A stretch of DNA of 36,598 bases, taken from contig JACZKK010000054.1 of assembly GCA_014860115.1 (NCBI GenBank), forward strand, positions 1-36,598, read 5' to 3'. A program made the translations under genes and the position numbers. Position 1 is the stretch's first letter; the number at the start of each line of letters is the position of its first letter. This document shows, piece after piece, positions 30,357 through 36,598 of this stretch. The stretch is from Ignavibacteriaceae bacterium. Lineage in GTDB: Bacteria > Bacteroidota > Ignavibacteria > Ignavibacteriales > Ignavibacteriaceae. The notes below the pieces were generated by a model. The model was not told where the DNA came from, ran no database searches, and saw only the letters and a list, made by a program, of their open reading frames with translations.

Positions 30357-30447
30357 TAGCAATTCTTTCACAAGGGATTAAAATTTATATCACAAAGATA
30401 GGATTTTTTGAGTGATAGTGTTAAAGACTTGTGTTCTTTCATTATTT

Positions 30448-30515
30448 GTCATTCCTGTGAAAACAGGAATCTAGGGATTGTTTGAAAAATGGATTCCCGC
30501 GTTCGCGGGAATGAC
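30448..30515. repeat. Two-hairpin palindromic repeat after pyrE
   Basis: Outer ends GTCATTCC (30448-30455) and GGAATGAC (30508-30515) are inverted. Inside are two hairpins: ATTCCTGT/ACAGGAAT (30451-30458 and 30463-30470, loop GAAA) and ATTCCCGC/GCGGGAAT (30493-30500 and 30505-30512, loop GTTC). The form resembles dispersed REP-like elements of the GTCATTCC...GGAATGAC type seen in many genomes. It begins 11 bases past the pyrE stop and is more GC-rich than its surroundings; it may act as a terminator or mRNA end. Confidence 0.85.
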
Positions 30516-31472: not shown

Positions 31473-32510
31473 CTACTTCAACAATATCATCTTCTTCGAG
31501 CTTATAAATTTTTCTGCAATTAACTGATAAATATAAACACCACTCGCAAGTGAAGAAGCATCGAACTGAACTTCATACCTTCCTGCCTGCTGTTTTGTGT
31601 TTACTAATTCTTTGATCTTTCTTCCGAGTATGTCGTAGATGATAAGTGATACATCACTTGTGTGTGGAAGATCGTATTTTATTGTTGTAACAGGGTTGAA
31701 TGGATTCGGGTAGTTCTGATATAAAGTATATTCAGTTGGAATGAGTTCTTTTTGGTTTTCTTTTGACTCGCTTCCAAAATGTTTTCTAAGTATTTCATCA
31801 ACTTTTTGGTTATAATCTGCAGAAGATTTTATCAGATACTTTCCTAGTCTTCCTTTCTGTAATGTCGAGTCTGCTTCCTCAATTAAAAGTGCAGTTGTAA
31901 GAGCATCTATCTCTGCATAGACTGCTTCCTCTGTGTTTGGATTCTGCTGAACTATGTTATCAAATTCAGCTATTGCTGTTTCATATTCCTGTTCACCGAC
32001 TTTGCTGAGTGTTGAAAGCTGGTTGAGTATCTTTTTGTTAAGTGTGTCCTGTGTGTTTGAAGCTAATGTTGAAAATGTATTGCTCAATTGGTTGAAGTAT
32101 TCTGCTGATTGACCTGTCAGCTTTCCGATTGTATATTTTCTTTCGTAAGCTGGATATTTCTCTTCATCTGTTGCACTGCTCATTATGATGTTCTCATATA
32201 TCTGTAATGCCGATGTCAAATCCCCGGTTAAATAATATTCTTCTGCTTCAGCATAATTCAGTTCAGTCTCGGTAAGTTCAAGTATTTCTCCTTCCACCGA
32301 GTAAACAGTATCAATAACATCACCAAACTGGTTCATCATTACCAGTTCTTCTTCACCGCCACCTATTGGTACGGGACAGGGCGAAAATGCATAAGGAACA
32401 TATTGAACATTAAGATTTCCAAATCTTGCTGCATAAACAGTATCTCCCCAAAAATTATTTTGAGCCTTTAGAGATATTGGAGGGTCAGTACTGGGTCCGT
32501 TCATTAACAA
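31473..32510 (-). CDS. C-terminal fragment of a frameshifted secreted protein: TPR-like region and T9SS type A sorting domain
   Basis: 345 codons from the first ATG at 32510, though the frame is open from 32588. It has no signal peptide and begins in mid-domain: the segment before and after the ATG (CVDNGCNLIVDDRL..., LKAQNNFWGDT) is the last coil of a beta-helix. Then come a helical repeat region resembling TPRs (AEEYYLTGDLTSALQIYENII, YETAIAEFDNIVQQNPNTEEAVY) and an 80-residue T9SS type A domain (YQNYPNPFNPVTTIKYDLP, LVNTKQQAGRYEV, ASGVYIYQL, KKMILLK). Such domains route cargo through the type IX system and are then cleaved. It is almost certainly the other end of the protein coded at 32555-35530, put out of frame by one base. 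A terminator follows. Confidence 0.8.
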   Translation of the reverse strand: MLMNGPSTDPPISLKAQNNFWGDTVYAARFGNLNVQYVPYAFSPCPVPIGGGEEELVMMNQFGDVIDTVYSVEGEILELTETELNYAEAEEYYLTGDLTSALQIYENIIMSSATDEEKYPAYERKYTIGKLTGQSAEYFNQLSNTFSTLASNTQDTLNKKILNQLSTLSKVGEQEYETAIAEFDNIVQQNPNTEEAVYAEIDALTTALLIEEADSTLQKGRLGKYLIKSSADYNQKVDEILRKHFGSESKENQKELIPTEYTLYQNYPNPFNPVTTIKYDLPHTSDVSLIIYDILGRKIKELVNTKQQAGRYEVQFDASSLASGVYIYQLIAEKFISSKKMILLK

Positions 32511-35575: not shown

Positions 35576-35638
35576 GTCATTCTGAACGAAGTGAAGAATC
35601 TCTGAGATTCTTCAGTCGCTTCGCTCCTTCAGAATGAC
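35576..35638. repeat. 63-base palindromic repeat between two T9SS cargo genes
   Basis: Outer arms GTCATTCTGAA (35576-35586) and TTCAGAATGAC (35628-35638) and inner arms GAAGAATCTC (35593-35602) and GAGATTCTTC (35604-35613) make one long imperfect hairpin with GAACGAAGTG facing CGCTTCGCTCC. It resembles dispersed GTCATTCTGA..CGAAG elements found across Bacteroidota genomes. It starts five bases past the stop of the gene to its right and may serve as that gene's transcript end. Confidence 0.85.
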
Positions 35639-35643
35639 TGTCA

Positions 35644-36598
35644 TCATTTTATATATATCATTTTCTTTACATCACTATACACTGGTATCCGGTTATCTCT
35701 GCTTACGAAAATCTGGTAGATGTATACCCCACTGCTAAGGACAGGAATGGATTCCTGTCCTACGGAAAAATCTACTTCATAATAACCCGCTTCCTGAACT
35801 TCATTGACCAACACAGAAACCAATTCTCCTTTAATGTCATAAACATAAAGCTTCACATATCCTCTCTCTTTCAGCTTGTAGCCTATCTTTGTGCTTGGGT
35901 TGAATGGATTAGGATAATTCTGGTATAGAATGTAATTGTTTACCGGTTTCCATTCATCTTTCACTGATGTCACAATTACTCCTACTTCTTCCGATGGGTT
36001 TGATTCATTTCCCTGGTTATCAACTGCTGTAAGCTTGAAGTAAAGACTTTCAACTCCGGTTGGAATTACAAAATAATAGAACGTATCAGGCTGTGAAGAA
36101 ATAAGTTTGGTTGAATCTATCTGGAAGTTATTTGTTGTATCATAAAATAAATTATAATAGCCGAAGTCCGCTTCTGTGTTTTTGTTCCATTTCAGAGTTA
36201 CAATATTGCTGTCAACATTAGCAGTCAGATTAACCGGAGGTCCGGGCGGCAGATCAAGATAAATATAGCTTTCACCAAAAGGTCCGCCGTAAAGACCAAT
36301 GTCGCTTACGCTTTCATCTTTGTCAAGAATAGTAGGGTCGCCTGCATCGATGAGTGATGAATACATCTGAAGTCTGAAATCCAAATCTCCCTGTGTTGTG
36401 TCCTCGTTTACTACCATTGGGTCAACCGAAAGGTTTGTTGTATCACCTGCAAAACCAGAATAGTTAACGTCGTTATTCCAAAGATTGTTGTATTGAACCA
36501 AAAGATTTTGTATCCCACCTCCGGAAATACCTGTGACAGTGTTAACAACCACATTGTTTTTAACCGTGTTTGAACCACCCACTAACATACCTTCTGGT
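35644..36598 (-). CDS. C-terminal part of a secreted T9SS cargo protein (beta-helix end, FN3 domain, sorting domain); N-terminus outside window
   Basis: The frame is open to the window edge (PEG precedes the Met at 36588), so the gene begins outside. The visible 318 residues run in order: end of a beta-helix/right-handed repeat (NTVKNNVVVNTVTGISGGGI, VQYNNLWNN); a DUF1565-like close (DFRLQMYSSLIDAGDP, DIGLYGGPFG); a fibronectin type III domain (PPGPPVNLTANVDSNIVTLKW to the SNPSEEVGV segment); and a T9SS type A sorting domain (YQNYPNPFNPSTKIGYKL, YVYDIKGELVSVLVNEVQEAG, LSSGVYIYQI, KKMIYIK). The product should be secreted or surface-bound; what it binds is unknown. Compared with the sorting domain at 31473, it has about five extra residues (VGQESIPV region), exactly where a perfect DNA palindrome lies. 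Confidence 0.88.
   Translation of the reverse strand, partial: PEGMLVGGSNTVKNNVVVNTVTGISGGGIQNLLVQYNNLWNNDVNYSGFAGDTTNLSVDPMVVNEDTTQGDLDFRLQMYSSLIDAGDPTILDKDESVSDIGLYGGPFGESYIYLDLPPGPPVNLTANVDSNIVTLKWNKNTEADFGYYNLFYDTTNNFQIDSTKLISSQPDTFYYFVIPTGVESLYFKLTAVDNQGNESNPSEEVGVIVTSVKDEWKPVNNYILYQNYPNPFNPSTKIGYKLKERGYVKLYVYDIKGELVSVLVNEVQEAGYYEVDFSVGQESIPVLSSGVYIYQIFVSRDNRIPVYSDVKKMIYIK
35738..35761. repeat. Perfect palindrome inside the T9SS sorting domain coding sequence
   Basis: Arms AGGACAGGAAT (35738-35748) and ATTCCTGTCCT (35751-35761) are exact reverse complements around two bases. It encodes, on the minus strand, the GQESIPVL segment of the sorting domain. The arm core ACAGGAAT/ATTCCTGT also occurs in the palindromic repeat at 30451-30470. 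Confidence 0.8.

Follow-up and report, generated by a model that had tools for sequence, protein, structure and literature searches.

A REP-like palindrome lies in frame in a loop of a type IX sorting domain and has counterparts in other sorting domains of the Ignavibacteriaceae

Palindromic repeats inside genes, both REPs and Rickettsia palindromic elements (RPEs), are already known (PMC3733652, PMC10969869, PMC2229807), and in-frame palindromic repeats have been described mainly as isolated examples, from Rickettsia and a few other genomes. In the account of Di Nocera et al. 2013, GTAG-tagged REPs carry GTAG at one end, with stems mostly of 6-9 bp and loops often of 2-3 nt; they form subfamilies with compensated stem changes, some of their copies are intragenic, and two Xanthomonas species have different REPs at about one site of recB (PMC3733652). 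The CGTC-tagged REPs of the same account include Neisseria dRS3 and Rickettsia RPE-4 and RPE-6 (PMC3733652). A Calditrichaeota genome is reported to contain a REP-like 18-mer, mostly between genes and with a different sequence (PMC5317091). As for the host of the element studied here, the C-terminal sorting domain (CTD) of the type IX secretion system (T9SS), known CTDs are reported to have widely variable loop lengths, and in P. gingivalis RgpB three residues of the loop Lbeta5beta6 were swapped for 11 with export, PorU cleavage and surface anchoring unaltered (PMC11285876). Among titles and abstract beginnings in the open-licence literature on T9SS and palindromes, coding palindromes, REP/RAYT and CTD loops, we find no report of such inserts.

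The window is the whole stretch of 36,598 nucleotides analysed here, contig JACZKK010000054.1 of an Ignavibacteriaceae bacterium, and its relevant features are collected in Table 1. The original prediction was that a perfect palindrome with 11-bp arms encodes part of a sorting domain, and this is confirmed. The palindrome reads AGGACAGGAAT GG ATTCCTGTCCT, and on the coding strand it supplies the last base of a V, the residues GQESIPV and two bases of an L, in frame within ..YYEVDFS-VGQESIPV-LSSGVYIY... Alignment of the two window CTDs (47 invariant columns of 107 aligned) also bears out that the other one reads FDASSLASGVY at the matching point and is 5 residues shorter. Synonymous shuffling of the 75-nt segment yields an arm of at least 11 in 20 of 20,000 trials, and GACAGGAATNNATTCCTGTC at up to 3 mismatches has one match in the window and none in 100 dinucleotide shuffles; the palindrome is more than chance. 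With 24 nt, a 9-bp stem (11 with the ends) and a 2-nt centre, it falls within the stem and size range of REPs (20-40 bp, 6-13 bp stem, short loop). The GTAG tag is present, but its last two bases are able to pair, which they mostly cannot do in the sister copies GTAGCTCAGG..CCTGAG. Scanning the window against Rfam and for tRNAs gave no matches. Nearby, at 35576-35638, between a beta-helix ORF and the sorting-domain ORF, there is a 63-nt composite palindrome (GTCATTCTGAACGAAGTGAAGAATCTC..GAATGAC).

Table 1. Features of the window, with their coordinates, strand and the basis of each assignment.
Feature	Positions	Strand	Basis
Perfect palindrome, 11-bp arms and 2-nt centre	35738..35761	-	
REP-like element, GTAG + 9-bp arm + CC + 9-bp arm, 24 nt, encodes VGQESIPV	35740..35763	-	architecture shared with GTAGCTCAGGTCTCCAGACCTGAG copies
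T9SS C-terminal sorting domain (CTD), element in predicted beta5/beta6 loop	35647..35934	-	HMM, alignment; loop is residues 65-76 of the 103-residue model
Host ORF, 317 aa, 5' end beyond the window edge, with C-terminal sorting domain	35644..36597	-	ORF list, translation
Second sorting domain of the window, canonical short loop FDASSLASG, insert-free comparison	31476..31760	-	alignment
CGTC-like palindrome (TGTC, 8-bp stem beginning AT, GAAA loop), intergenic, a different element from 35738..35761	30447..30471	+	
CGTC-like palindrome GTCATTCCCGCGAACGCGGGAATC, inverted partner of 30447..30471, distant match (3 mismatches) to the C pattern	30492..30515	-	

The host domain has the beta-sandwich and the motifs of a T9SS type A sorting domain, and it scores 22.6 bits against TIGR04183, just below the curated cut-off of 23, and 21.7 bits against PF18962, below the cut-off of 27. 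Its structural model (mean pLDDT 73, from two sequences) has six predicted strands, with the insert between those predicted at residues 57-64 and 77-85. In RgpB a D-x-x-G turn marks the beta3-beta4 loop (PMC4804311). We read D40-G43 of the model, between predicted strands 32-39 and 45-54, as the equivalent turn, which would place the insert in Lbeta5beta6. By analogy, the loop swap in RgpB is independent evidence that this loop could accept about the length that a REP adds. A fold search with the window domain gave no match at E <= 0.001, and the weak matches include FlgD and PorU (PorU at E 0.05). A sequence search of the PDB returned a single weak match, which is irrelevant.

The architecture of the element recurs in the family. 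Searching 80 family genomes for the pattern GTAGSWCAGGNNTCCANNCCTG with up to 1 mismatch, we find 29 places in 12 genomes and none with the control pattern. Sixteen are in-frame CTD loops, the window included; one is a decayed CTD; 11 have no gene-length frame, the longest stop-to-stop frame covering any of them being 107 codons; and one is a chance match, non-palindromic and inside another protein. A GTAG REP would be expected mostly between genes, but only 11 of the 28 real matches are frameless while 16 of the 28 lie in CTD loops. In the window's own genome, the sister element GTAGCTCAGG[A/T]CTCCAG[T/A]CCTGAG occupies seven loci (eight rows, one of them the C56 site read in reverse), namely two intact CTDs, one decayed CTD and four intergenic places. 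One decayed sorting domain (L258/L228, G000 C43:18703) carries both a loop-1 insert (LTPIPLSEGEGVR) and a GTAG palindrome. A search of the 80 genomes for [EK]VxFxVGQ as DNA gives 23 places in 12 genomes, compared to 8 for the backward control, and 22 of the 23 are sorting domains. The 23 matches use 5 of the 32 possible codon combinations for VGQ. An arm of at least 8 is present in 16 of the 22 sorting domains, and the other six fall short; the arms themselves differ, as in GACAGACT-ATT-AGTCTGTC, GACAGAAT-AGT-ATTCTGTC and GACAAACT-TCC-AGTTTGTC.

The exact element is much rarer than its type. Further copies of the window 24-mer in its own genome had been anticipated, and these we reject: at up to 3 mismatches, the 22-mer of the palindrome has one true copy in 3.93 Mb, and the sole other match is poor. 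At up to 2 mismatches, the 80 family genomes hold one further match, with other flanks and in no frame above 100 codons. The exact pattern occurs in three contigs of a collection of bacterial and archaeal genomes, and viral contigs have no exact match to it. One of the three contigs belongs to an Ignavibacteria genome of the same class (G221), and there 28 nt identical to the window, TAAGGACAGGAATGGATTCCTGTCCTAC, precede the first ATG in a frame of 542 codons. The pattern GGACAGGN{2,16}CCTGTCC matches 24 times in G221, at 19 distinct places (five are counted twice), compared to 3 in the control. More widely, TAGGACAGGN{2,14}CCTGTCC is present in 20 of 391 genomes of the class, and one match to the TAGGACAGGN pattern, in a genome of the same family as the window but a different genus, again reads in frame through a T9SS loop (FSVGQDNILSLSSG). 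A TAGGACAGG..CCTGTCC palindrome (L064, G319 C202:8356-8378) lies in a frame of 468 codons, at codon 345, and this frame has no sorting-domain motif. One genome (G032 C1:823778-824409 and 972364-972983) has series of TAGGACAGGTCNCGACCTGTCC-like units, mostly spaced 101-123 bases apart.

A second family of palindromes, which we call C (the GTAG type being A), uses the same loop. The pattern GTCATTCCGGCNNNNTCCGGAATC at up to 3 mismatches gives 27 places in the window's genome and none for the control: 16 CTD loops, 10 places without a gene-length frame, and one in a frame that by eye is glycosyltransferase-like. This last frame (L287, G000 C185 near 3005) apparently has two in-frame composite repeat inserts. 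The 16 CTD-loop copies encode SHSGxxRN or something near it, two of them (L299, L300) in CTDs without the SGxY motif. Of the 10 matches outside genes, six differ in the stem and fit the pattern only when 3 mismatches are allowed. The tag is TGTC in nine of the 10 matches outside genes and AGTC in 14 of the 16 CTD copies. In stem (8 bp, beginning AT) and loop (4 nt) the family agrees with CGTC-tagged REPs. The original prediction held that the core of the window palindrome is shared with a repeat at 30451-30470. Eight letters are indeed present there, in the opposite arm order (ATTCCTGT-GAAA-ACAGGAAT), and it is therefore a different palindrome. With its partner it makes an inverted CGTC-like pair between genes (30447-30515), of the same broad kind as the SHSGxxRN inserts of CTD loops. 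Other palindromes in CTD loops of the same genome are GTAGGGACAAGTC..GACTTGTCC, TCCGCCT..GGCGGA and TGCCTACCGGTAGGCA, and in relatives GGGCTTGATTCATCAAGCCC, GGAACGGTCTCCCGACCGTTCC, GGTCAACTTGGCAAGTTGACC and GGACGGGTTTCAAACCCGTCC.

The inserts go together with lengthening of the loop. The window's genome has at least 150 CTD matches (150 scored of 271 first-look candidates). For a loop survey we obtained 147 CTDs of this genome and parsed 144, measuring the loop between F and SG(V/I)Y. The loop has 6 residues in 101 of them, another short length in two and 8 residues or more in 41. Arms of at least 7 occur in 14 of the 41 long loops, where synonymous shuffles give a mean of 0.81 and a maximum of 4 in 300, and in one of the 103 short loops, where the shuffle mean is 1.68. 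A coarser test on 69-nt segments is weaker, with arms of at least 7 in 15 of 147 loop segments and 20 of 441 control CTD segments, and arms of at least 10 in one of 147 and six of 441, the palindromes in the controls being due in part to another CTD loop that also takes inserts. That loop lies near the N-terminal strands (L138:2317, L162:10283 and 12305, L154, L153, L146, L143), and its repeat-like inserts include PSVETRHASSL (a 28-nt perfect palindrome), GAQYIVP, VIVSEAKQS and LRQAQSD; related palindromes lie outside long ORFs at L164. In a test of this loop 1 for arms of at least 10, one of 8 long loops is a clear case, and 2 of 137 others have such arms. A third place in a CTD (L154:11700) has NLPAGQAGSG encoded by a CCTGCCTGTCCGGCAGGCAGG palindrome.

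Filled and unfilled versions of the strand 5/6 loop stand side by side. Paralogues in one stretch (L162) with near-identical flanks have the filled FNASSASGGLPSG / AATGCAAGCTCCGCCTCAGGCGGTTTACCAAGC (arm 6) and the unfilled FNASSLPSG / AATGCAAGTAGCTTACCAAGC. More distant pairs are L089 and L153, 66% identical over 455 residues upstream, and L090 and L256, 62% over 398 residues. A clean insertion is not seen in these data, as the inserts seem to take the place of about three residues. The three closest paralogues of the window domain in its own genome have long HPTLAERGRVTQLEVPMGKRYNQM-type loops without a palindrome, and the palindromes are thus not the source of every long loop. For the protein part upstream of the window CTD, relatives occur in 29 of the 80 family genomes. 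Their loci, with a few neighbouring genes, give 51 CTD rows, of which 44 could be parsed, and eight of these 44 have an arm of at least 9 at the loop, in five sequence types. A same-genus relative, 67% identical upstream (L107), has the short loop FTAESTLASG.

On our best reading, the palindrome at 35738-35761 is of REP type, not an RPE, and sits in a permissive loop as one example of something that recurs within the genome and the family. We consider it highly probable that a GTAG-tagged REP-type element joined the T9SS sorting domain with the frame intact and was kept there. The identity to extragenic elements, the match with loop lengthening, the many CTD loci and the differing palindromes in relatives of the gene are all direct observations. 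Counting against this reading, no second copy of the window element's exact arms occurs in its own genome. The original prediction of a mobile palindrome that joined a reading frame stands for a dispersed type with extragenic copies and an insertion, and proves far more general than was proposed; it does not stand as a claim about the exact element, which is single-copy. The sorting domain would be an immunoglobulin-like beta-sandwich whose strand 5/6 loop tolerates extra residues. Elements of 24 nt (8 codons) that are free of stops and land in this loop would be retained because of that tolerance, probably at the cost of about three original residues, and elsewhere they would survive mainly outside genes. 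Since the genome has some 150 CTDs, equivalent landing sites would be many. At least two unrelated families (GTAG-type and CGTC-like), together with several other palindromes, occupy this same loop. We suppose that tolerance, rather than benefit, keeps them there.

How the elements spread is a separate question. The palindrome may ride on the CTD family: after a few original insertions, gene conversion, unequal recombination or gene duplication would have carried the loop from one CTD to another. We hold this, which is compatible with a REP-type origin, for a serious if somewhat less than even possibility. Frame and orientation speak for it, since all 16 A and all 16 C copies in CTDs use one frame and one orientation (for A 3 of the 6 frames are stop-free, and for C 5 of the 6), as do the start of A copies directly after F-x and the at least 150 CTD matches available in the genome. 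Against it, the flanks are far less alike than the elements. For the 16 A copies the element is 0.85 alike compared to 0.65 and 0.71 for the flanks, and at third positions 80% compared to 44% and 50%. For C copies (11 of the 16 CTD cases, the other five falling outside the pattern used) the element is 0.87 alike and the flanks 0.59 and 0.70, where the upstream figure is lowered by one of the 11 (L283) that is anchored differently upstream. A CTD tree from which the loop was left out also shows the bearers dispersed, with 3 changes for 3 rows (A), 2 for 2 (B), 11 for 13 (C), 8 for 8 (D) and 19 for 26 for any of the four types, raw counts that come without a shuffled-label figure and from short, weakly resolved sequences. 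Copying would likewise have to account for the starts of C copies, which vary from 1 to 4 residues after F, for a shorter C version (L154, SSFRLFRN) that starts in another frame, and for the differing palindromes among relatives of one gene. Because the flanks are less alike than the elements and the bearers are scattered, the element seems to be younger than the divergence of the CTDs and would have arrived via transposition or via gene conversion limited to the loop. The encoded peptides, such as VAQVSRPE and SHSGEVRN, are polar, and the use of a single frame fits selection on the peptide or CTD-to-CTD copying better than blind insertion.

If the REP-type elements are mobile, a Y1/RAYT-like transposase would be the probable agent, as we infer from known GTAG REPs (PMC3733652). 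Y1 transposases are present in 72 of the 80 family genomes, and the window's own genome has four. A tie through the same palindromes at the gene flanks was not found in the 30 Y1 loci examined: nine lack any palindrome with an arm of at least 9, in 20 the hairpins are all of other kinds, and at the remaining one (L204), the single representative among the 30 of the four own-genome loci, a GTAG-type palindrome centred on CTCC lies about 1 kb from the gene. Several family Y1 genes (L204-L223) are flanked by hairpin series of their own, for instance CCACGACCTTTAGGTCGTGG. A further idea is that the CTD loop is a preferred landing site, targeted by REP-type elements from two superfamilies or serving as their route of spread, and that these elements would form a standing source of new surface-loop peptides for the secretion signals of some 150 exported proteins. 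We regard this as unlikely.

The palindrome could also be retained for a role in DNA or RNA, either as a 3'-end mRNA hairpin or as a recombination site for CTD swapping. The site is near the 3' end of the gene, and there are compensated changes in the arms (CAG..CTG and CAA..TTG in G049, GGACTCC..AGTCC and GGTCTCC..AGACC), both of which speak for such a role. We nevertheless find it quite improbable, since most parsed CTDs of the genome have the canonical 6-residue loop, decayed palindromes remain in loops (for example L110, L112 and L164), and families with differing stems share the same site. Finally, the palindrome-free long loops of the closest paralogues and the wide length variation reported for known CTDs (PMC11285876) might suggest a plain protein loop that varies in length and is palindromic in its codons by accident. 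This is already contradicted by the synonymous shuffles, the extragenic copies, the alikeness at third positions and the restricted VGQ codons, and we give it almost no credence. The outcome named as refuting the original prediction, a segment present in most sorting domains with varied codons, was not seen.

Here the inserts are concentrated, with dozens in a single, structurally defined loop of a single domain family, and unfilled paralogues and relatives alongside. This makes it testable how selfish palindromes become protein, including which frames survive, whether the peptide is selected, and whether transposition or gene conversion spreads the element. It is also a warning that VAQVSRPE, SHSGEVRN and VGQESIPV in sorting domains are DNA repeats, and not conserved protein motifs.

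Set against the described systems, the window CTD is like those of TIGR04183 and PF18962 in its NYPNPFNPST start, its beta-sandwich and the conserved lysines near its end, and differs in its scores below both cut-offs. The resemblance to Rickettsia that had been proposed is only partial. Rickettsia palindromic elements (Ogata et al. 2000, 2002; via PMC10969869, PMC2229807) likewise lie in frame in protein genes and leave the genes intact, but they are reported to be 105-146 bp long and to occur in unrelated genes (PMC2229807), whereas here the element is 24 nt, the size of a REP, and several families share one domain and one loop. The C family is like the CGTC REPs in its 8-bp stem beginning AT, its 4-nt loop and its mostly TGTC tag outside genes, and is unlike them in that 16 of its 27 places in the genome are CTD loops and that 14 of those 16 begin with AGTC, instead of CGTC or TGTC. 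With the GTAG REPs the window element shares the GTAG end, the short stem and loop, compensated stem changes and intragenic copies, as well as the occurrence of different palindromes at about one site. The difference lies in where the copies are: the main text of PMC3733652 stresses DNA repair genes and does not contain the string 'ignavibact', while here more than half of the real matches (16/28) sit in one loop of one domain family.
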